Shown: positions 6,227 through 19,218 of the stretch, one piece after another
How positions within the stretch are numbered: position 1 is the stretch's first letter
Layout of the letters: each line of letters begins with the position of its first letter
Assembly: GCF_025751435.1 (NCBI RefSeq)
Contig: NZ_JAOWKY010000005.1
Span: 124,001-188,000, forward strand
DNA from: Albidovulum marisflavi
GTDB taxonomy: Bacteria; Pseudomonadota; Alphaproteobacteria; Rhodobacterales; Rhodobacteraceae
DNA length: 64,000 nt
Reading direction: 5' to 3'
Program-made: the position numbers and the translations under genes
Notes under the pieces: generated by a model
Databases searched by the model: none
What the model saw: only the letters and a program-made list of their open reading frames with translations
Told to the model about the DNA's origin: nothing

Positions 6227-6249
6227 TGGTGCTGCGAGAGGGCATTGAA
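6227..6249. repeat. Left att-like repeat (partial copy of the tRNA-Thr 3' end)
   Basis: The first 14 bases, TGGTGCTGCGAGAG, are identical to the 3' end (CCA side) of tRNA-Thr at 19144-19157, in the same orientation. The next bases match imperfectly (GGCATTGAA here, AGGATTGAA there). The integrase gene starts about 140 bases inside. This is what remains of a tRNA-directed attachment site after integration; the intact tRNA lies at the other end. Confidence 0.75.
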
Positions 6250-6361: not shown

Positions 6362-6382
6362 GGTGGATTGAGAGGTGGATTG
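6362..6382. promoter_or_regulatory. Left arm-type integrase site: two GGTGGATTG repeats
   Basis: Two copies of GGTGGATTG start at 6362 and 6374, a 12-base period. The same arrangement, with one variant base, occurs at 19069 and 19081 beside the right att site. Paired short repeats just inside both ends of an integrated element are how tyrosine integrase arm sites usually look. Here they also overlap the ribosome-binding region of the integrase, which would allow autoregulation. Confidence 0.5.
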
Positions 6383-6386
6383 GATT

Positions 6387-7571
6387 ATGCGCTACAAACT
6401 CTCTTCAAAACAGATAGAGCGTTCCAAGCCTGGAAAGTACGCAGATGGCGACGGGTTGTGGTTCGTAAAGCGCTCCGATGGAGGCGCTCAATGGGTTTTT
6501 CGGTACACCCTTCACGACCGTCGCCCCGAAATGGGGCTCGGCAAGTATCCCGAGGTTGGGTTGGCTGAAGCTCGTGAGTCGGTTGCTAAATGGCGTGCAG
6601 TTCTTCGGGACGGCCAAGATCCAATCAAGGTTCGAAATCGCCAGAAGCGCGAAGCTGCCCGCGCAGACAACACTCTCAGCACTGTAGCGAGGGAAGCCTT
6701 CGAGGCGCGGAAGGCGGAGTTGAAGGATGACGGGAAAGCCGGCCGATGGTTCTCGCCGCTGGAAATGCATGTCCTGCCGAAACTTGGGACAGTGCCGATC
6801 GAGGAAATCGACCAGAACGACCTTAAGCGCGTCCTCGCGCCGATCTGGCACGACAAGGCCGATGCCGCGAAGAAGGCACTGACCCGCCTAAGCATCGTAA
6901 TGCGCCACGCGGCCGCCATGGGGCTAGAGGTCGATTTGCTCGCGACGGAGAAGACGAGAGCCCTGCTTGGCAAGTCTAGGCATGTGATCCAACACATCCC
7001 GGCTCTGCCATGGAAAGAGGTCCCCGATTTCTACGCGAGCCTGAATGACGGTTCGGTAACGCATCTGGCGCTGCGGCTTCTGGTCCTTTCGGCAGCACGT
7101 TCGAAGCCAGTTCGGTTTTGCCGGATGGAGCAGATCGCGGGCGACGTTTGGACCATTCCGGCCGAGTTGATGAAGGGCCGCAAGGGTCAGGTCTCCGATT
7201 TCAGGGTTCCGCTTTCGCAGGAGGCTCTTGGGGTGATCGAACAGGCGAAGCCTTTTGCCCGTGATGGCTACTTGTTTCCAAGCATCCGTAAGGGCGTGAT
7301 TTCTGATGCGACGTGGTCCCGCCTCATGGAGCGCCGCGGTATGGATGCACGCCCGCATGGTTTCAGGACTAGTTTCAGGACCTGGCTTGCCGAGGCTACA
7401 GACGCGCCTGAGCAGGTTGCCGAGACATGCTTGGCCCACGTTACAGGCACGAAGGTTGCGCGTGCCTACCAGCGATCGGACTTTCTGGAGCAGCGCCGCG
7501 TCCTGATGGAGCGCTGGGCGGACTTTGTGACGGGTGGCGAGGGCAAAGTCGTGCAGATGGTGCGGAAGTGA
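6387..7571 (+). CDS. Tyrosine-type integrase (P4-like)
   Basis: 394-aa site-specific recombinase of the bacteriophage P4 integrase type: N-terminal arm-binding domain with the usual DGDGLWFVK and YPEVGLAEAR motifs (residues about 15-60), core-binding domain, then the catalytic domain. Visible catalytic residues are the Arg of LSAARSK, the HGFR box near residue 325, AHVTGTK, and the nucleophilic Tyr in ARAYQRSD. The start is taken at the ATG at 6387, with GAGGTGG 8 bases upstream; a GTG four codons earlier is possible. It sits immediately inside the left att site, reading into the element, and is translationally coupled to the next gene. Confidence 0.92.
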   Translation: MRYKLSSKQIERSKPGKYADGDGLWFVKRSDGGAQWVFRYTLHDRRPEMGLGKYPEVGLAEARESVAKWRAVLRDGQDPIKVRNRQKREAARADNTLSTVAREAFEARKAELKDDGKAGRWFSPLEMHVLPKLGTVPIEEIDQNDLKRVLAPIWHDKADAAKKALTRLSIVMRHAAAMGLEVDLLATEKTRALLGKSRHVIQHIPALPWKEVPDFYASLNDGSVTHLALRLLVLSAARSKPVRFCRMEQIAGDVWTIPAELMKGRKGQVSDFRVPLSQEALGVIEQAKPFARDGYLFPSIRKGVISDATWSRLMERRGMDARPHGFRTSFRTWLAEATDAPEQVAETCLAHVTGTKVARAYQRSDFLEQRRVLMERWADFVTGGEGKVVQMVRK

Positions 7572-10081: not shown

Positions 10082-10348
10082 ATGACGGCGAACGCAGAAA
10101 CAGACAAACGCTATGGCACCGAGTTCGGATCAGCGGAACGGCGCGCGCTGAACGACGAACGCGCGACCGAACTGCGGGCCCAGATCGCACTCGATGGAGA
10201 TTTCCCGGTGCCAGGCTGGACGCTTGGCGAAGGCGTACCGGACATGATGGCGAACGAGGCGCTGGCTTGGCTCGACGCTGTGCAGCGCGAGACGGACGAA
10301 ATCTGTGCCAGAATGGACGCGCTGATTGCTGAGAGGTCTGGCCAATGA
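10082..10348 (+). CDS. Hypothetical small protein
   Basis: 88 aa; ATG at 10082 with a strong AGGAG 8 bases upstream (the in-frame ATG at 10061 lacks one). Mostly helical and charged; not recognised. Its stop overlaps the start of the large virion-like protein (ATGA), so the two are coupled and may act together, for example as a small chaperone-type partner. That is inference from arrangement only. Confidence 0.6.
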   Translation: MTANAETDKRYGTEFGSAERRALNDERATELRAQIALDGDFPVPGWTLGEGVPDMMANEALAWLDAVQRETDEICARMDALIAERSGQ

Positions 10349-12813
10349 GTTTCTTCGACTGTCTTCAGGATGCGATCGACGAGGGCTCTGCTGACAAAGA
10401 GCGCGGGAAGCTGGCGCAGCGTCTCTGGCGCGACCTTGCCGACAAATACGAGCGCCAAGGGCATCCACGCCATGTGGCCGAAGGGCTTGCCGCGGAGGAT
10501 GTGAAGGCCGCACTCAGGAAGGAGGCGGGCAACAAGCGCCACGTCTACACTGCGACAATGGCCGCGCGGCGCCGGGCCGAGGCGATAGTCGCGCAATCGG
10601 ATCAGATCGGCACCATCGCAACCGACGCGCTCGAATTCGCCGCCAACTCTCCTAACCGCGCGGCATCGGTCATCGGGCAGCAAAGGGCCATCGTGCGTGC
10701 CTGGCATTCTCGGCTTGCTGGCCTCTTGAAGGACCACCACCGCGACCTGCTGGGCCGAACGCGCAATCCGGCGCAGCTTCGCAACGTGGTGCGGGAGCTT
10801 CACGGTGAGAGCACGGGCGACTTGGCCAGCATCGCGATTGCCAACAGCGTGCGCCAGGCCTTCGAGGATTTGCGGCTGATGTTCAACGAGGCGGGCGGGC
10901 TGATCGGTAAGTTGGAAAACTGGGGCTTGCCCCACACCCACAACCAGCGCGCCATTCGCAAAGCAGGATATGACGCCTGGACGGCAGCGGCGCGAGGCCG
11001 CATCGCTTGGGACAAGATGGAAGACCGCCTGACCGGCCGACCGCTGGCCGAGCCCGGAGCCATGCCCCCAATCGAGGTGCAGGACGCCATCCTGCGCGAG
11101 GTTTACGACAATCTGGCTTTCGGCAAGCAGGCGAGTGAGGCGGTCTATGGGCGCTCTGACGGGGAAAGCCTTGCCCTGCGCCGCAGCCACGAGCGCACGC
11201 TGCCCTTCCGGTCGGCTGATGACTGGATCGAGTACAACAAGCGCTTCGGGACCGGCGATCCGTTCGCCACCATCATTTCACACGTTCACAAGATGGCGCG
11301 CGACATCGCGATGATCCGCGAATTTGGGCCGAACCCGGCGCTGGGCATGGACTACCGCGCGCAGCTTGCCGTGGGCCGTGCGCGCGAGATGGGCGACGTG
11401 CAGTTGGCGCGGCGGATCGAGGGCAACGCGGCGCACGCGAAGCGCATGATGGTCATCTTGAACGGTAGCCTCGTGCCGGCCGGGCCGTGGCAAGAGGCTG
11501 TCGCGTCATTCATGTCGACCACCCGACACGTCCTCACCGCGGCCTTTCTCGATCGCGCCGTGATTTCGGCATTCTCGGATACCAACAGCATGCGGATGGC
11601 CGCGGCGTCGATCGGCATGAACCCCGGCAACGTACTGACGCGCCATGTGAAGCTGATGGCCGATGGCATGAGCCGTGAAGAAGCGCTCAGGGCTGGATGG
11701 ATCGCGGACACGCTCGCAGACCCCGGACTGGCGCTCGCGAGGTTCCAGAGCGAGGTTCCCCCTGCCGAACTGGCTGAACGGCTCTCATCCGGCGTCCTGC
11801 GCATCCAGGGGCTATCTGGGTGGACCGACTACGCCCGCATTGCTTTCCAGATGGAGATGAGCGGGCACTTTGCCTCGCAGGCAGGCCGGAAGCTGGCGGA
11901 CGTTGACGAGCCTTTGCGCGGACTTCTGCGGGACAAGGGCATCACAGAAAGTGAATGGGCAGCCTTCACCGATCCCGCCACGCTCTTCACTGCATCGAAC
12001 GGCGCCACCTTCGCGAGTCCCATCTATTGGCGAGAAGCCACGGACATGTCCCGCGCCGAGGCTGACGACTTGTTCCTGCGGCTGCAATCGATTGTAGAGG
12101 AGCAGACCGAGTTTGCCGTGCCGACCAATTCGACTTGGGCGCGCGCCTTTGTCGAGGGCGGAATGCCGCCCGGTTCGATCGGCTATGAACTCGCCAAGTC
12201 TGGCCTGATGTTCAAGAGTTTCACCATGACCTTCACGGTGAACCAGTACCGCCGCATCATGTCGCTGCCGACCTGGCCGAGCCGGGCCAGCTACGCCGCC
12301 AACATGGCTGCCGGCGCCACCATCATGGGCGCCATCGCGTTGCAGATTACCGACCTCGTGAGCGGCCGTGACCCGAGCGACATGACCACGCCCGAGTTCT
12401 GGGCCACCGCTGCCCTCAAGGGCGGTGCCTTCGGTCTTCTGGGCGACGTGGCAGGCTCTGCGGAGCGTCCCTTTGGAGGGCTGCCGGCCTACGCGGCGGG
12501 GCCTGTCCTCTCGGCCGGTCAGGACGCCTGGGGGCTGATCTTCGGGAACGCCCTGAACCTCGCCACGGGCAAGGAGACGCACTTCGCCAAGGACGCTGTT
12601 CGCGCGCTCGATCGCTATGCGCCGGGCTTTGACTTGCCGGTATTGGGTGAAGCGCTCGACCGTATGTTCAGCGACCAGTTGCTGTTGCTACTGGACCCCG
12701 ACGCCGCGGACGCTGTGGCGCGGGCCGCGAAGCGGAAGAAGCGGGATTTCTGGCTGCCGGGCGAGATTACCCCGTCGCGCCTTCCTGACTTCTTCAAGGC
12801 CGTAGGAGGCTGA
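10345..12813 (+). CDS. Large phage polyvalent / internal virion-like protein
   Basis: 822 aa, the largest gene of the element. The N-terminal 500 residues are largely helical. The C-terminal 300 residues carry a pattern I recall from large phage internal-virion and polyvalent proteins: GGMPPGSIGYELAKSG, then a hydrophobic stretch around residues 645-670, a GG-rich GAFGLLGDVAGSAERPFGG segment, a DRMFSDQLLLLLDPDA box and a terminal WLPGEITPSRLPD. Such proteins are often packaged and ejected with DNA. No capsid, portal, terminase or tail gene lies nearby, so it may be loaded into a helper phage's particles. The family call is by recall, not search. Confidence 0.6.
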   Translation: MSFFDCLQDAIDEGSADKERGKLAQRLWRDLADKYERQGHPRHVAEGLAAEDVKAALRKEAGNKRHVYTATMAARRRAEAIVAQSDQIGTIATDALEFAANSPNRAASVIGQQRAIVRAWHSRLAGLLKDHHRDLLGRTRNPAQLRNVVRELHGESTGDLASIAIANSVRQAFEDLRLMFNEAGGLIGKLENWGLPHTHNQRAIRKAGYDAWTAAARGRIAWDKMEDRLTGRPLAEPGAMPPIEVQDAILREVYDNLAFGKQASEAVYGRSDGESLALRRSHERTLPFRSADDWIEYNKRFGTGDPFATIISHVHKMARDIAMIREFGPNPALGMDYRAQLAVGRAREMGDVQLARRIEGNAAHAKRMMVILNGSLVPAGPWQEAVASFMSTTRHVLTAAFLDRAVISAFSDTNSMRMAAASIGMNPGNVLTRHVKLMADGMSREEALRAGWIADTLADPGLALARFQSEVPPAELAERLSSGVLRIQGLSGWTDYARIAFQMEMSGHFASQAGRKLADVDEPLRGLLRDKGITESEWAAFTDPATLFTASNGATFASPIYWREATDMSRAEADDLFLRLQSIVEEQTEFAVPTNSTWARAFVEGGMPPGSIGYELAKSGLMFKSFTMTFTVNQYRRIMSLPTWPSRASYAANMAAGATIMGAIALQITDLVSGRDPSDMTTPEFWATAALKGGAFGLLGDVAGSAERPFGGLPAYAAGPVLSAGQDAWGLIFGNALNLATGKETHFAKDAVRALDRYAPGFDLPVLGEALDRMFSDQLLLLLDPDAADAVARAAKRKKRDFWLPGEITPSRLPDFFKAVGG

Positions 12814-13497: not shown

Positions 13498-14343
13498 CTA
13501 CCCCTTGCGCACCTTGATCGCGTCGCATTCCTCGCCGGGACAACGGCCGATGGAATGGATCGACTGGTGGTACAGCCCCTTCTCGCCGTTCTTGCGCGTA
13601 TTGCAGTCCTTATGCGCACGCTGAAGGTTCGGGATGTAATTGTAGGCCACGGTCATCTCGTCTTTCATGAACGCATGAAAGTGCCATCCCTGGTAGCAGA
13701 TGACTGTGAGCGGCACGCCCGGCGGTTTATCCTGAAACGCCGCCCAGCTGTCCTTGTGGTCGATATCGGTTTCGTCGCCGGGATTAATGGGATTGCGGCA
13801 GATCCCGCAATGCGTCTGCAAGTTGATCGTGTCCTTGGTGGCTTTCCTGAACGACAGCCCCTCTCGTGTTCCCATATATACCGCCCTAGGGCCGTCGACC
13901 GTGTAGAGCGTGTCTGGCAGTTTGGGCTTCCGAGGTGTGCGATCCCGCCCTCTTGCCTCGATAACAGGGTCCATATCATCGGGGATCGGCGTCCCCATTT
14001 CGACCCGATACGCACGGATAAACCGGTCGCAGAGCCTTGATAGTTCTTCCCACTCTTTCATTTGCGAACGAAGGGCGCGCTCGAATCTTGTATCCTCGGG
14101 CGACTTGAGCGTCGGCAGAAGCATCTTGATCTGTTGCTGGTAGGCGTGCGCGTCGCCCCTAAGTGCTGGTCGATATGTCCTAGACCGCTCGGAATACTCT
14201 TGCGCCGTCTGGTGGAGTCTAGCGAAGTGCGCGACGTCGATCGGAGTCTCGTCGCGATCTCGCCTTTTGGGCGAGGCGTCGCGCAGACGAGTCACGAAGG
14301 TGCGGTATTCGTCCTCATCCATGTTCGTGTCGAATTGGGACAT
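13498..14343 (-). CDS. HNH endonuclease family protein
   Basis: 281 aa. The first 170 residues are helical and charged. The C-terminal part is an HNH (beta-beta-alpha-metal) nuclease: CGICRNPI zinc knuckle, then DIDHKDSW with the first catalytic His, and NLQRAHKDCNTRKNGEKG with the Asn, second His and zinc Cys. A late CPGEEC may complete the zinc site. It is encoded opposite to the element's core operon, downstream of a coiled-coil gene on the same strand, and both lie between 29-base direct repeats. It could be a homing-type nuclease or an anti-phage effector; the long N-terminal domain and partner gene favour an effector. Target unknown. Confidence 0.75.
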   Translation of the reverse strand: MSQFDTNMDEDEYRTFVTRLRDASPKRRDRDETPIDVAHFARLHQTAQEYSERSRTYRPALRGDAHAYQQQIKMLLPTLKSPEDTRFERALRSQMKEWEELSRLCDRFIRAYRVEMGTPIPDDMDPVIEARGRDRTPRKPKLPDTLYTVDGPRAVYMGTREGLSFRKATKDTINLQTHCGICRNPINPGDETDIDHKDSWAAFQDKPPGVPLTVICYQGWHFHAFMKDEMTVAYNYIPNLQRAHKDCNTRKNGEKGLYHQSIHSIGRCPGEECDAIKVRKG

Positions 14344-15647: not shown

Positions 15648-16223
15648 TTAGATGGGCGTCAGAGATTGTGCATCACCTGCGACATGGTCATGGCCACGCG
15701 CAGCGTGTCTTCCTCTTTGGGCAACTGTCCCAACATGAACCGGATAATCGGCGTCTTCGCTTGCAGAGACTCCAGCATCCGTAACGCCTTTGTGCCCATC
15801 AACGACTTCCACGATTTGCTGGCCGGGCCGCACGTACTCGTAGCCGCCCCGATCCCTCTGCCGGGCGTCCACGGAAACGTTGACCTCTGTCGCCGCCTTG
15901 CCCTCGCGCAGGAGTAGGTCAATCACCCGCAGCTTGGCGTTCTCGCTCCCCGTCTCAAGAATGTCCCGCGCGACCTCCAGCGCCCGAAGCCGCGCCACGG
16001 CGCGCAGATGGCCAACGTCTCGCGCCATGCTCTCCTGTTCCTCCCGGATCAGGTCCTGCACCACCGTCCGCTTGAGCGCCTTGGCGAAGCCGTTACGGCT
16101 CAGGCCGGCCTTCTCGGCCGCGTTGGCGATCGACAGGTTTTTACGCACCCTGAAGCCTACAGCGGCGCGGACACGGGGTGAGATGCGAGCGGGGCGGGGC
16201 GTGATGGCAGAGAGATTGGTCAT
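15648..16223 (-). CDS. Phage terminase-small-subunit-like or regulator HTH protein
   Basis: About 191 aa in this frame. The first 110 residues look genuine: basic N-terminus, then a helix-turn-helix (LSIANAAEKAGLSRNGFAKAL) and long charged helices (ARLRALEVARDILE), as in phage small-terminase-like or transposase-like DNA-binding proteins. After a GYEYVRPGQQIVEVVDG segment the frame stays open but its composition becomes unlike protein, while a second frame (15659-15799) becomes protein-like. Either two genes overlap or the C-terminus is read after a frameshift. Function uncertain. Confidence 0.5.
   Translation of the reverse strand: MTNLSAITPRPARISPRVRAAVGFRVRKNLSIANAAEKAGLSRNGFAKALKRTVVQDLIREEQESMARDVGHLRAVARLRALEVARDILETGSENAKLRVIDLLLREGKAATEVNVSVDARQRDRGGYEYVRPGQQIVEVVDGHKGVTDAGVSASEDADYPVHVGTVAQRGRHAARGHDHVAGDAQSLTPI
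15659..15799 (-). CDS. Overlapping 46-aa ORF in another frame
   Basis: Starts at an ATG inside the end of the HTH gene, in a different frame, and reads MGTKALRMLESLQAKTPIIR then a helical stretch ending SQVMHNL. It looks more like real protein than the frame it overlaps. It may be a separate small gene translated by coupling, or the true C-terminus of the HTH protein joined by a frameshift or sequencing error. Confidence 0.4.
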   Translation of the reverse strand: MGTKALRMLESLQAKTPIIRFMLGQLPKEEDTLRVAMTMSQVMHNL

Positions 16224-16412
16224 GCACCAAGAATGCCTTATGATGTGTAGGCGAGCGGATGCACGAACGACTGCAGGAATACGTATGCCCAAGCGCCATG
16301 GTGGGCGCTAGGTATTGTCATTGACTGACCTTCGGAGCAATCTAGGCAAAAATCAGCTTCGACTGATGGCTGAGGGAGACGCAAATGACTGCTAACAGCG
16401 CGTTGACATGCC

Positions 16413-17312
16413 GTGAGTAGGTTGGCCCTGACTTGTGACGATGGGCCGGCGCGATCAACCATCTCACCACGGCGAGAACTTGGTGCCTATGAGGCGCTGT
16501 TCATGCAGCAAGGCGCTACTTTCAAGACATTAGCTGAGAAATTCGCCTCGGATGAAACAGCTTTACCGTCAGATTTTGTCTCACCGTTTGAGGCGGATCA
16601 GACCGCCACTGCGGTAATCGAGAGCCTGCATAAGTCGGGCGTTTACCACTTTGGAGTGCGCATCAACAAGGCAGGTGACTATCCAGCGAGACTGCGTGAC
16701 GCCAAGTATCCCGTTGAGCTTCTCTACTACCAAGGCACCTGGGAACTCAGCGAAATGCGGAGTCTTGCCGTAGTCGGAAGCCGTAAGCCGTCCGAGGAAG
16801 GCATTAAGCGGGCCGCGCGCCTTGCGAGAGAACTTGTGGCGCGGAAGTTCGCTGTGGTTTCCGGCCTTGCTGCCGGTGTTGATAAAGCTGCCCACGAAGC
16901 TGCGCTCGAAGCAGGTGGCCGGACGATAGCTGTGATCGGCACGCCACTCGGTGAGAGTTACCCAAAGGAGAATGCAGAACTGCAAACGCGCATAGCGCAA
17001 GAACACTTGCTCGTGTCGCAAGTTCCAGTGCTTCGATATGCTGCACAACCATTTCAGCACAGGAGGTATTATTTCCCGGAGCGGAACGCGACCATGAGCG
17101 CACTGACAGAGGGGACAATCATCGTGGAGGCCGGAGAAACATCCGGAACGCTAACTCAAGCACGCGCCGCCCTTTATCAAGGTCGAAAGCTATTCATTTT
17201 GGATAGCTGCTTTAATAATCCCGCTATCACGTGGCCTGCACGATTTGAAAAAGAAGGCGCCATCCGGGTTCGTGAGCCGGCTGACATTTGGAAGGCATTG
17301 CCATTCGAATGA
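16413..17312 (+). CDS. DprA/Smf-like protein of a DprA-phosphoribosyltransferase pair
   Basis: 299 aa, with a GTG start. The core is the DprA Rossmann-like fold: LAVVGSRKPSEEG near residue 127, VVSGLAAGVDKAAHEAAL near 155, IAVIGTPLGESYP near 178, and FPERNATMSALTEGTIIVEA with GETSGTLTQARAAL near 225-250. These match housekeeping DprA, which binds single-stranded DNA and loads RecA, but the N-terminal 100 residues differ. The gene is visibly richer in A+T than the chromosome and is fused by an ATGA overlap to a phosphoribosyltransferase-like gene. I recall this pairing being reported as an anti-phage system in phage and satellite hotspots, so a defence role is more likely than transformation. 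Confidence 0.82.
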   Translation: MSRLALTCDDGPARSTISPRRELGAYEALFMQQGATFKTLAEKFASDETALPSDFVSPFEADQTATAVIESLHKSGVYHFGVRINKAGDYPARLRDAKYPVELLYYQGTWELSEMRSLAVVGSRKPSEEGIKRAARLARELVARKFAVVSGLAAGVDKAAHEAALEAGGRTIAVIGTPLGESYPKENAELQTRIAQEHLLVSQVPVLRYAAQPFQHRRYYFPERNATMSALTEGTIIVEAGETSGTLTQARAALYQGRKLFILDSCFNNPAITWPARFEKEGAIRVREPADIWKALPFE

Positions 17313-17956
17313 GTTTCACAAAGGTTGACGAATTAATAAGGGCCGATCACAGTGCTCTTATTGAAGAAGATAACTGCATCTTTCTCCGCGAGTACAAGGC
17401 GAGCGCCGGCTTCAAAGGGGAGACCAACAGTCTCATTTGGAACCTGAAGAAGAAACCAAGTGAACGCCTAACTAAAGCGGGTTGGCATCACAAGGGCCGT
17501 TGCATCAAGCAGGTTTCCAAGGAGTTCGCAGACGCTCTAAATCCGAAGTGGTTAGACCATGCGACCTTAGTACCCACTCCAGGTTCGAAGGCGATAGGGC
17601 ACCCTGACTATGATGACCGCATGGAACAGATTTGTCGGGGGATACGGCCTAGCTTAGATGTCCGTTGTCTTGTCAAGCAGATCGCTTCAATGGAAGCCTC
17701 GCACACAGCCGAAGGCGGCAACCGCGCGTCGGTGGAAGAACTTCTAGCAAACTACCAGATTGATGAAGCGCTCTCACTCCCTTTGCCAACGGCAATTGGT
17801 ATTTTTGATGATGTTCTGACCGTCGGAAGGCACTATCGCGCTATGCATACGGTTCTGTCTCAGAGGTTTCCGGGCGTCCCGATCACTGGGATATTCGTCG
17901 CGCGGACCATACATCCCAATCCATTTGAGAACATTGATTTTGCGGCTGATTTTTGA
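17309..17956 (+). CDS. Phosphoribosyltransferase-like protein paired with DprA
   Basis: 215 aa. The PRTase signature is visible as IGIFDDVLTVGRHYRAMH near residue 165, corresponding to the PRPP-binding loop with two acidic residues. A hydrophobic strand precedes it, and ITGIFVART follows as the next strand. The N-terminal 100 residues contain CIFLREYKA and a ComF-like LVPTPGSKAIGHPDYDDR segment. ComF-type PRTases also partner DprA in competence, but here the two are adjacent and overlap by four bases, outside any competence locus, in a low-GC cargo position (one 60-base line at 17281 has only 23 G+C). Most likely the second component of the DprA-PRTase defence module. Confidence 0.78.
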   Translation: MSFTKVDELIRADHSALIEEDNCIFLREYKASAGFKGETNSLIWNLKKKPSERLTKAGWHHKGRCIKQVSKEFADALNPKWLDHATLVPTPGSKAIGHPDYDDRMEQICRGIRPSLDVRCLVKQIASMEASHTAEGGNRASVEELLANYQIDEALSLPLPTAIGIFDDVLTVGRHYRAMHTVLSQRFPGVPITGIFVARTIHPNPFENIDFAADF

Positions 17957-18184
17957 GATTAGATCGCCATCAACTCCCAAGATTGTTTGACGAATGGCCA
18001 CCCATCTGCTTGAATCTCCTGTTGTCCGGTTGTGGTCCAACCAGCAATCTTAAGCAGGCAGCCAACGATGCGCCGATCTCGCTATGAAAAAAATTGAAAA
18101 CCGCGCGTGTAGGGGTCGAGTAGAGATATCGGCGTGCGCGATTTCCCCCCCACCCCCCTGCCGAAGGCTCCCCCCGGTACAGAA
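17957..18184. other. Short non-coding stretch after the DprA-PRTase pair
   Basis: No gene seen. Rich in A+T at first, then C-rich (two runs of seven or more C near 18147-18175) up to the minus-strand terminator. Confidence 0.35.
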
Positions 18185-18212
18185 AGACGCCCCCCTCATC
18201 GCGAAGGGGGCG
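18185..18212 (-). terminator. Intrinsic terminator of the lipoprotein gene
   Basis: Read on the minus strand, CGCCCCC and its complement GGGGGCG form a strong stem with a loop of about ten bases, followed by TCTTTCT. It lies about 28 bases beyond the stop of the 18240-18560 gene. Confidence 0.65.
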
Positions 18213-18239
18213 CCCGTCAGGACTTGGCCTTGCCGCGGT

Positions 18240-18560
18240 TCAGCGCCGGGCGAATTTCGATGTATCGAACGGACAAGCGTTCCCGGTCGCCTTGGCATCG
18301 ACCACCCGGCCCTGGCTGAGTGTCAGGGTGCGCGTGCAGATGAACGTATGCTGCCCGGCGTCTCCGTAGGTTCCTACGGTCTGGTAGGACTTCACCCAGT
18401 CGTATTGCTTCGCGCCAGCGACCGATCGCTCAGCGTCGGGGTAGCCCCATTGGGCGATTGCGTCCTCAAGCGTGGCGCCGTTCCAGGTCGCCAGTGCCGC
18501 CCCGTTGTCACCGGCCGTGCAGGCAGAGAGCAGGAGGCAGAGTGCTGCCAGTCGTTTCAT
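18240..18560 (-). CDS. Prophage-type small lipoprotein
   Basis: 106 aa. Signal peptide with lipobox (MKRLAALCLLLSACTAG; Cys at residue 14) so lipid-anchored. The mature part has WNGATLEDAIAQWGYPD, a pattern found in small envelope lipoproteins where WG.P starts a beta-rich domain, and two Cys that could form a disulphide. ATG at 18560 has AAGGAAAG upstream. Probably co-transcribed with the 18617-18997 gene. It could alter the host surface as a lysogenic-conversion protein; unproven. Confidence 0.65.
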   Translation of the reverse strand: MKRLAALCLLLSACTAGDNGAALATWNGATLEDAIAQWGYPDAERSVAGAKQYDWVKSYQTVGTYGDAGQHTFICTRTLTLSQGRVVDAKATGNACPFDTSKFARR

Positions 18561-18616
18561 GGTCTTTCCTTTCGGGGATGGAGAAAGGCCGGGCGCTGTG
18601 GCCCGGCCCGTGTCGC

Positions 18617-18997
18617 TCAGACGGTGACGGCGTCGGCGCCAAGGGCTTGCTGTGCCTCTGTCGCCAGAAGATCGGCATCCCATCCATCGAAGGCGCCGCC
18701 CAAGTCTGCCATGTGGACCTTGATGTAAAGGTCTCGCAACGATGCGGGCGGCAGGCCGAAGATCCGCCGCTCGATCGCGTCCAGTGCCACGCAGCGCTCA
18801 TCGAGCAAGGCGTCGGGGCAGACTTCCGGCAGGGGTGACGCTCGTAGCGCCTTCCACTCGTTGAACAGCGCCTCAATGGTCGACACCTGCGCCGCTTCCG
18901 AGATTGCGGCAGTAGAGATGCCCGAGACCGCCACCAAGTCCGCCAGTGAAGCCGATGCGAGCATGTCGCGCCGCGTCGTGCTGAGTTCCTTCGTCAT
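18617..18997 (-). CDS. Hypothetical protein at the right end of the element
   Basis: 126 aa; ATG with AAAGGG upstream. The N-terminus STTRRDMLASASLA resembles a twin-arginine motif, but the following region is only weakly hydrophobic, so export is doubtful. The C-terminal half is acidic and helical (LDAIERRIFGLPPASLRDLYIK). Not recognised. It is the last element gene before the right arm sites. Confidence 0.55.
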   Translation of the reverse strand: MTKELSTTRRDMLASASLADLVAVSGISTAAISEAAQVSTIEALFNEWKALRASPLPEVCPDALLDERCVALDAIERRIFGLPPASLRDLYIKVHMADLGGAFDGWDADLLATEAQQALGADAVTV

Positions 18998-19090: not shown

Positions 19091-19143
19091 AAACCGATCA
19101 TTCTCAGCAATTAGCTGATTTTCATCAGTTTTCTTTGGGGCGA

Positions 19144-19218
<75 letters not shown>

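Follow-up and report, generated by a model that had tools for sequence, protein, structure and literature searches.

A two-gene module in the window

The window analysed here, a stretch of 64,000 nucleotides from Albidovulum marisflavi (contig NZ_JAOWKY010000005.1), carries two overlapping genes on its forward strand which very probably form a ShosTA-type immune module, i.e. a compact ShosTA that is the cargo of a phage-derived element integrated at a tRNA-Thr gene. The first gene, shosA (16413-17312), starts with GTG and encodes a DprA-like protein of 299 aa, the putative antitoxin or sensor (PADLOC, Pfam, phylogenetic tree, AlphaFold2 model). The second gene, shosT (17309-17956), encodes a compact phosphoribosyltransferase (PRTase) of 215 aa and likely the toxin (PADLOC, structural model, invariant D167, D168 and G173). 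The sequence ATGA at 17309-17312 contains both the stop codon of shosA and the start codon of shosT. Such a 4-nt overlap was also present in 10 of 24 other paired loci, two of which (L012 and L020) use a TTG start chosen by script and one of which (L028) is an identical copy of L005; the remaining loci have other short overlaps or gaps. The original prediction had described an ATGA-overlapping pair of DprA and PRTase with a lower G+C content than the chromosome. Both frames were found in place, and the pair has a G+C content of 53.3% versus a mean of 64.3% (standard deviation 2.3, lowest value 59.0%) for 96 stretches of 1544 bp each taken from the rest of the sequence beyond the element.

ShosA is DprA-like and separate from the chromosomal DprA

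ShosA matches the PADLOC model PDLC03961 (4.8e-97) and the Pfam domain DNA_processg_A (1.7e-58). It stops after the Rossmann domain; the open frame of the genome's own DprA, encoded on a separate contig (contig 2, L001), reaches 404 aa. The equivalog cut-off of the NCBIfam model dprA (TIGR00732, 191.15 bits) was surpassed by the own DprA (218.5 bits) and missed by window ShosA (165.6 bits). In a maximum-likelihood tree of 61 rows, 25 ShosA sequences clustered in one clade (100/99; 99% of bootstraps) with 30 chromosomal DprAs outside, and the own DprA grouped with chromosomal DprAs of the same class (98/96). The chromosomal sample was drawn from 40 genomes, 38 of them with a DprA-domain match, and 30 loci were kept. 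In a wider tree the ShosA clade comprised 31 rows (99/90). Neither tree includes L002, which duplicates the window; the wider one also lacks the partial ShosA of L106 and, on account of its very long branch, the second DprA of L015. Residues invariant among 22 ShosA rows include R124, R224, N225 and K259; R124 and the FPxRN stretch presumably correspond to DNA-contacting residues of DprA. The AlphaFold2 model (mean pLDDT 88.8) has its nearest fold in DprA of Streptococcus pneumoniae (TM-score 0.70), with E. coli ShosA (PDB: 8zva) in fourth place (0.67).

Both proteins of the pair have the folds of competence proteins, and the best Foldseek match of ShosT is a ComF. The genes could hence be displaced competence genes (DprA and ComF) which still serve DNA uptake. 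We consider this extremely improbable, and a competence origin was rejected on the grounds of the tree, the missed dprA cut-off and the separate chromosomal DprA; furthermore, a ComF/GntX-like gene, so named from matches below the cut-offs of those models, is present elsewhere in the genome, and the family is carried by phages. The original prediction had named a position of both genes inside the chromosomal competence DprA and ComF clades, or a lack of protection against phage, as results that would speak against it; as to DprA, window ShosA was placed outside all 30 chromosomal rows. Because of the PADLOC matches, the tree, the own DprA elsewhere and the integrase-bearing element described below, the pair is understood as a mobile ShosTA/DprA-PRTase module and not as competence genes.

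ShosT is a compact phosphoribosyltransferase

ShosT (P0002) matches PDLC03962 (4.5e-45), adjacent to the ShosA match. No Pfam match was obtained and, at E-values up to 1, neither a PDB match by sequence nor a match to PDLC03012, the model of the long ShosT. With the AlphaFold2 model (mean pLDDT 89.9) as query, Foldseek ranked ComF of Helicobacter pylori first (PDB: 7p0h, 1.3e-4), followed by the ShosT structures 8zvd, 8zvc and 8zvb (3.9e-4 to 1.3e-3). The mark of type I phosphoribosyltransferases is an acidic pair in the binding site for phosphoribosyl pyrophosphate (PRPP), followed by T/S and G. In window ShosT the motif reads DDVLTVG, and the acidic pair D167/D168 is retained. Invariant positions in 23 aligned rows were D21, C23, Y29, N40, N45, K47, K62, P89, P91, S93, K94, D102, R104, H132, D167, D168, G173, G194 and F196. 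A profile of these 23 compact ShosTs recovered 35 frames with at least 153 bits, the next frame scoring 28.3 bits and the genome's own ComF/GntX-like protein 17.3 bits; this gap exists partly by construction, as the 35 frames include the window three times and most others are rows of the profile. L107, the lowest-scoring compact ShosT absent from the profile, reached 153.4 bits.

The comparison of compact ShosTs was based on 86 distinct full-length sequences. The 110 loci had given 113 rows, 94 of them distinct, and eight of the latter with frames below 190 aa were dropped (L019, L147 twice, L162, L177 twice and L184 twice). ShosA is encoded directly upstream and on the same strand in 84 of the 86. 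The two exceptions are L116, which starts at a contig edge, and L112, with an adjacent ShosA on the opposite strand. Separated by search route, the pairing holds for 75/77 sequences found through ShosT and for 9/9 found through ShosA, the latter being favoured by the search; separated by source, for 13/13 from one genome collection, 18/18 from other ShosT searches including the window and 44/46 from viral contigs. A search with the family profile gave 56 loci on viral contigs, in 52 of which ShosA lies directly upstream. The motif DDxx[TS]xG occurs in 84/86 compact ShosTs. Of the 86, 46 come from viral contigs retrieved with two patterns, one of them being this very motif; it is present in all 31 sequences from other ShosT searches and in eight of the nine found through ShosA. 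Two further motifs, P-x-P-SK and D-[DN]-R, are found in 78/86 and 68/86, respectively. On the viral contig L112 (8001-9532), compact ShosT and ShosA stand tail to tail, an arrangement that could be due to an inversion or an assembly fault.

The pair is cargo of a phage-derived element

The pair resides in an integrase-bearing element of 12.9 kb at the 3' end of a tRNA-Thr gene (GGT; 19144-19218, reverse strand, predicted with ARAGORN), which is the integration site. Attachment-like direct repeats of 23 nt with two mismatches (21/23 nt identical, the first 14 nt without difference) are located at 6227-6249, just before the integrase gene, and at 19144-19166, the 3' end of the tRNA-Thr. The tyrosine integrase (6375-7571, forward strand) comprises the Pfam domains Arm-DNA-bind_3, Phage_int_M and Phage_integrase, all above cut-off. 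The right repeat coincides with the end of similarity to loci of the same genus. Of 21 same-genus genomes searched, 19 had a murA match and eight were fetched; in all eight, tRNA-Thr and murA stand together as in the window, and similarity stops at window position 19142-19144 in seven and at 19121 in one (L099). Since the left flank of the window was seen in none of the eight within 8.4-9.4 kb (3.5 kb for L092) beyond the tRNA, the left junction is defined by the repeat and the integrase only.

A homologue of the phage virion protein phrog_684 (822 aa, 10345-12813, forward strand, E 1.2e-134) precedes the pair; it matches 112 of 50,697 phage records, 36 of them with a coverage of at least 80%. 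Other scanned cargo consists of a winged-helix gene and a replication-initiator-like gene (phrog_270, 5.5e-29). Neither terminase nor capsid was found among the eight open reading frames of the element scanned besides the pair, a scan that left some small frames aside. The only other PADLOC match among seven element proteins tried was a weak one to PtuB (0.01) for the gene at 13498-14343. Between the pair and the tRNA end lie two small reverse-strand frames, 18617-18997 and 18240-18683, the former with no PADLOC match. Scans for promoters and terminators in 16200-18300 gave no excess over shuffled sequences. The element is regarded as phage-derived. The description of the pair as cargo of a satellite-like element is confirmed in so far as integrase, repeat and tRNA-Thr identify an integrating element, and the term satellite is plausible rather than proven.

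A small integrating element with overlapping genes would also be compatible with an addiction module that stabilises the element and affects phages only incidentally. The shosTA pair was first described as a toxin-antitoxin system (Kimelman 2012, cited in the available part of PMC9122126). Stabilisation and defence are not mutually exclusive, and addiction as the actual role of the pair is judged very unlikely.

A conserved leader frame at the start of shosA

An 11-codon leader frame (16385-16420, forward strand) overlaps the weak start of shosA and is preceded by the strong Shine-Dalgarno sequence AGGGAG (16373-16378, forward strand). The arrangement was compared among nine distinct loci whose ShosA shares 75% identity or more (the window and L003-L010; L028 and L169-L171 are copies). 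The Shine-Dalgarno sequence is AGGGAG in eight of them including the window and AGGAGG in the ninth. The position of the leader ATG 28 nt before the ShosA start, the length of 11 codons and the stop position are constant in 9/9, the stop codon beginning 5 nt past the first base of the ShosA start. The latter is GTG, TTG or once ATG, always a valid start codon, and in the stretch tested in the nine loci no Shine-Dalgarno match belongs to it. Column variation amounts to 0.42-0.72 further upstream and to 0-0.22 in the Shine-Dalgarno sequence and the next columns. The sequence of the leader peptide is not conserved, and no RNA structure beyond chance was detected at the leader (z -0.70). A looser leader pattern occurred in 5% of shuffled single upstream regions; a single leader would mean little, and nine with equal geometry mean more, although the loci are related.

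Outside this group, L011/L172, one distinct locus, has a leader start in frame with ShosA. Among less similar loci, L102, L103 and L118 have leaders of other lengths and L115 an in-frame start, and no leader was detected in L101, L112, L184, L012, L114, L113, L119, L104, L117, L120, L176 and L025; the pattern test covered loci with at least 60% ShosA identity, L105 and L125 being without an upstream stretch.

The geometry suggests a chained translation of antitoxin and toxin from the leader. Because the leader and ShosA frames differ by one base, it was considered whether ribosomes might pass from the former into the latter by a programmed +1 frameshift. Re-initiation appears favoured, since a valid ShosA start is present in 9/9 loci and ShosA codons 3-12 display third-position variation (0.64 versus 0.42 and 0.28), a pattern absent from the leader (0.45, 0.58, 0.41). 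The conserved leader is a new detail of this pair.

Distribution of the compact form

The compact form is patchily distributed. Within the order, it was found in 3 of 292 genomes (PADLOC ShosT model, below 1e-30), and a fourth genome, G023, has the long form; at 1e-3 all 292 genomes match the model because other PRTases match as well. Within the class, 7 of 385 genomes were positive by ShosT, and within the family, 16 of 394 by ShosA, the own genome being included in all three counts. A genome collection yielded 13 loci, among them Loktanella, Ruegeria, Limimaricola, Paracoccus, Roseovarius, Brevundimonas and Pseudomonas as well as a [Flexibacter] strain, presumably a member of the Bacteroidota, and a metagenome-assembled genome of the Chloroflexota. 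The ShosA loci of the genomes G289, G814, G869 and G870, all assigned to the host's family, are identical over the compared stretch to L005, L006, L007 and L009, which originate from Rhodobacteraceae bacterium (two), Silicimonas and Limimaricola. The compact family was also present in 5 of 50,697 phage records and on 56 viral contigs; matches were found on 14 of 72,556 plasmids, nine of them extending over the greater part of the protein. Among 5,426 E. coli genomes, 683 gave any match to the L020 pair and 37 contained at least 80% of it. The compact family is thus broad and mobile, and the genome of the window adds no novel type of host to it. A widened host range, as had been expected, is not supported in view of the presence of the compact family in Rhodobacteraceae-type genera, rhizobia, gammaproteobacteria, [Flexibacter], the Chloroflexota genome and phages. 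On one E. coli chromosome (L108), the compact pair adjoins a broken zorC and a frameshifted gene of a TOTE-type primase, i.e. defence-like surroundings.

Proposed mode of action

Support for an immune function comes from related pairs: RqlHI, shosTA and the DprA-PRTase pair of the P2 hotspot were characterised experimentally as toxin-antitoxin or anti-phage systems, according to the available parts of three publications (PMC9122126, PMC4670107, PMC12593503), to which the following statements are limited as well. The P2-hotspot pair confers protection from T7 and lambda (PMC9122126). The DprA-like partners of rqlHI and shosTA neutralise the toxicity (PMC9122126, PMC12593503, PMC4670107). A review of a 2025 mechanism study attributes to ShosTA PRTase and pyrophosphatase activity, a disturbance of purine metabolism, duplications in the DNA, filamentation and cell death; ShosA is reported to bind DNA and likely favours recombination, and T7 Gp0.7 is given as the trigger (PMC12593503). 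The chemistry, which the original prediction held to be not understood, has hence been partly worked out for E. coli ShosTA, for which structures also exist.

For the window pair, we propose that ShosT acts as a PRPP-dependent toxin that would disturb nucleotide pools or DNA. ShosA, with a DprA-type fold and DNA-binding by homology, would bind and restrain ShosT or repair the damage caused by it. Intermediates that arise when the phage replicates or recombines, or else a protein of the phage, may upset the balance between ShosA and ShosT, and the infected cell would then stop supporting the phage. Translation of leader, ShosA and ShosT as a chain would ensure that the toxin is made only together with the antitoxin. 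What ShosA does is the less certain part of this explanation; in the compact form it may be an antitoxin or a co-effector.

Some observations weigh against the assignment to ShosTA. The TM-scores of the ShosT model are low, 0.43-0.46 for the solved ShosT structures and 0.48 for the best match ComF. The ShosA profile is not diagnostic alone, as the genome's own DprA matches it at 4.6e-57. Moreover, a literature search, with subscription papers mostly outside its reach, retrieved nothing on a compact HAD-less ShosT or on its testing. The same search gave nothing on the leader.

In a variant of the proposed mechanism, ShosA is a sensor and activator rather than an antitoxin: compact ShosT would do no harm on its own and would become active through ShosA bound to DNA. 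Rousset et al. suggested a role of DprA in the sensing of phage DNA and the activation of the PRTase (PMC9122126), and the isolated PRTase domain of RqlH is not toxic (PMC4670107); compact ShosT, moreover, is devoid of a second Pfam domain. In contrast, the neutralising effect of the DprA-like partners in rqlHI and shosTA argues for restraint rather than activation, and we regard the activator variant as somewhat unlikely. The toxin-antitoxin mechanism can be extended speculatively. The compact pair might be the minimal DprA-PRTase immune unit, with HAD-PRTase (ShosT) and RecQ-PRTase (RqlH/PsyrT) toxins as elaborated forms; in the absence of a second toxin domain, ShosA might supply the DNA targeting of the toxin, and the leader of this clade might set the antitoxin-to-toxin ratio such that the effect is released once a phage lowers the initiation of translation. 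This extension is quite unlikely in its entirety. The leader frame itself offers a testable idea for how the ShosA/ShosT ratio is kept.

Comparison with known systems

ShosTA of E. coli and P2-like phages (PDLC02997 and PDLC03012; PDB: 8zva-8zvd, 9vzo, 9w2p and 9w2q) is likewise an operon of a DprA-like protein and a PRTase on a phage-related element, and PDLC03961 and PDLC03962 match both this system and the window pair. However, the long ShosT has 424-432 aa with an N-terminal HAD-like part, whereas window ShosT has 215 aa and consists of the PRTase only. Window ShosA is 33% identical to the ShosA of this system over 64% of the query. The solved ShosT chains (including PDB: 8zvb-d) comprise HAD and PRTase in 432-447 aa, and a rhizobial-plasmid PRTase of 414 aa can be aligned to solved ShosT over almost the full length (6e-62). 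The ShosT of Pf phage is annotated as HAD/PRTase. N-terminal HAD matches of long forms are weak to moderate: L026 has HAD_2 and HAD-IA above cut-off, L024 and L025 have HAD_2 below it. When the profiles of compact and long ShosT were compared, the alignment spanned no more than 44 columns near the PRPP site (probability 56%); judged by sequence, the two appear to have little beyond the PRTase core in common. The usual HAD motif I is DxD. At about residues 8-14, the long ShosTs of L024, L025 and L026 read SLRD and that of the P2-like phage P2_4C9 (L109) SIAD; with this deviation, the HAD site may be altered or without activity.

In the wider tree, compact ShosA (31 rows, 99/90) and long ShosA (5 rows, 98/93) each have a group of their own. 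Separate origins were unsupported: a single clade of 38 rows was not rejected by the approximately unbiased test (p 0.509), and owing to long branches neither answer is strong. The rhizobial plasmids L024 (3085-6857) and L025 (3085-6877) carry a compact ShosTA together with a second, long-type ShosTA in convergent orientation, 19 and 33 nt apart, respectively. In L022, the PRTase of the second module is split over two frames and its DprA is found beyond an IS66 insertion. A third form occurs in the host's family (L031, 717-2013, in G068; L030 in G258). It is sister to compact ShosA in the tree, consists in L031 of a 228-aa DprA core overlapping a 227-aa PRTase, and adjoins a gene that reads as methylase-like from its translation.

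The two-gene architecture of the window is shared by the compact ShosTA of E. coli and Enterobacter plasmids, Burkholderia phage Mana, rhizobial plasmids and Rhodobacteraceae-type genomes, with identities to the window of 55-88% for ShosA (21 others) and 32-79% for ShosT (22 others). The 11-codon leader was found only in those compact loci with ShosA at least 75% identical. Two other systems, RqlHI and PsyrTA, are of one and the same kind. Window ShosA scores 91.6 bits on PsyrA versus 322.9 bits on ShosA, and window ShosT has no PsyrT match. RqlHI likewise sets a DprA-like antitoxin against a genotoxic PRTase domain (PMC4670107, in its available part), but in its toxin RqlH the PRTase forms the C-terminal part of a RecQ-family helicase.

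The original prediction had assigned the window pair to DprA-PPRT, the DprA and PRTase system described from the P2 hotspot by Rousset et al. 2022 (PMC9122126). This applies to the mobile DprA+PRTase module, which PADLOC classifies as ShosTA, and does not extend to its architecture. The P2-like pair examined for this comparison, that of P2_4C9, scores 764.6 and 973.2 bits on PADLOC's other ShosA and ShosT models (PDLC03012: 973) and is a canonical long HAD+PRTase ShosTA, whereas the window pair is compact. The name ShosTA therefore covers two toxin architectures, and the biochemistry of the long form, PRTase plus pyrophosphatase in the available part of the review (PMC12593503), is not simply transferable to the compact one. 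A natural PRTase-only toxin with a DprA partner is the simplest material for the action of PRTases on DNA or nucleotides in immunity and allows one to ask whether toxicity depends on an additional HAD or helicase domain. The novelty of the window pair is modest: it belongs to the known ShosTA kind, with a toxin smaller than the versions studied so far.
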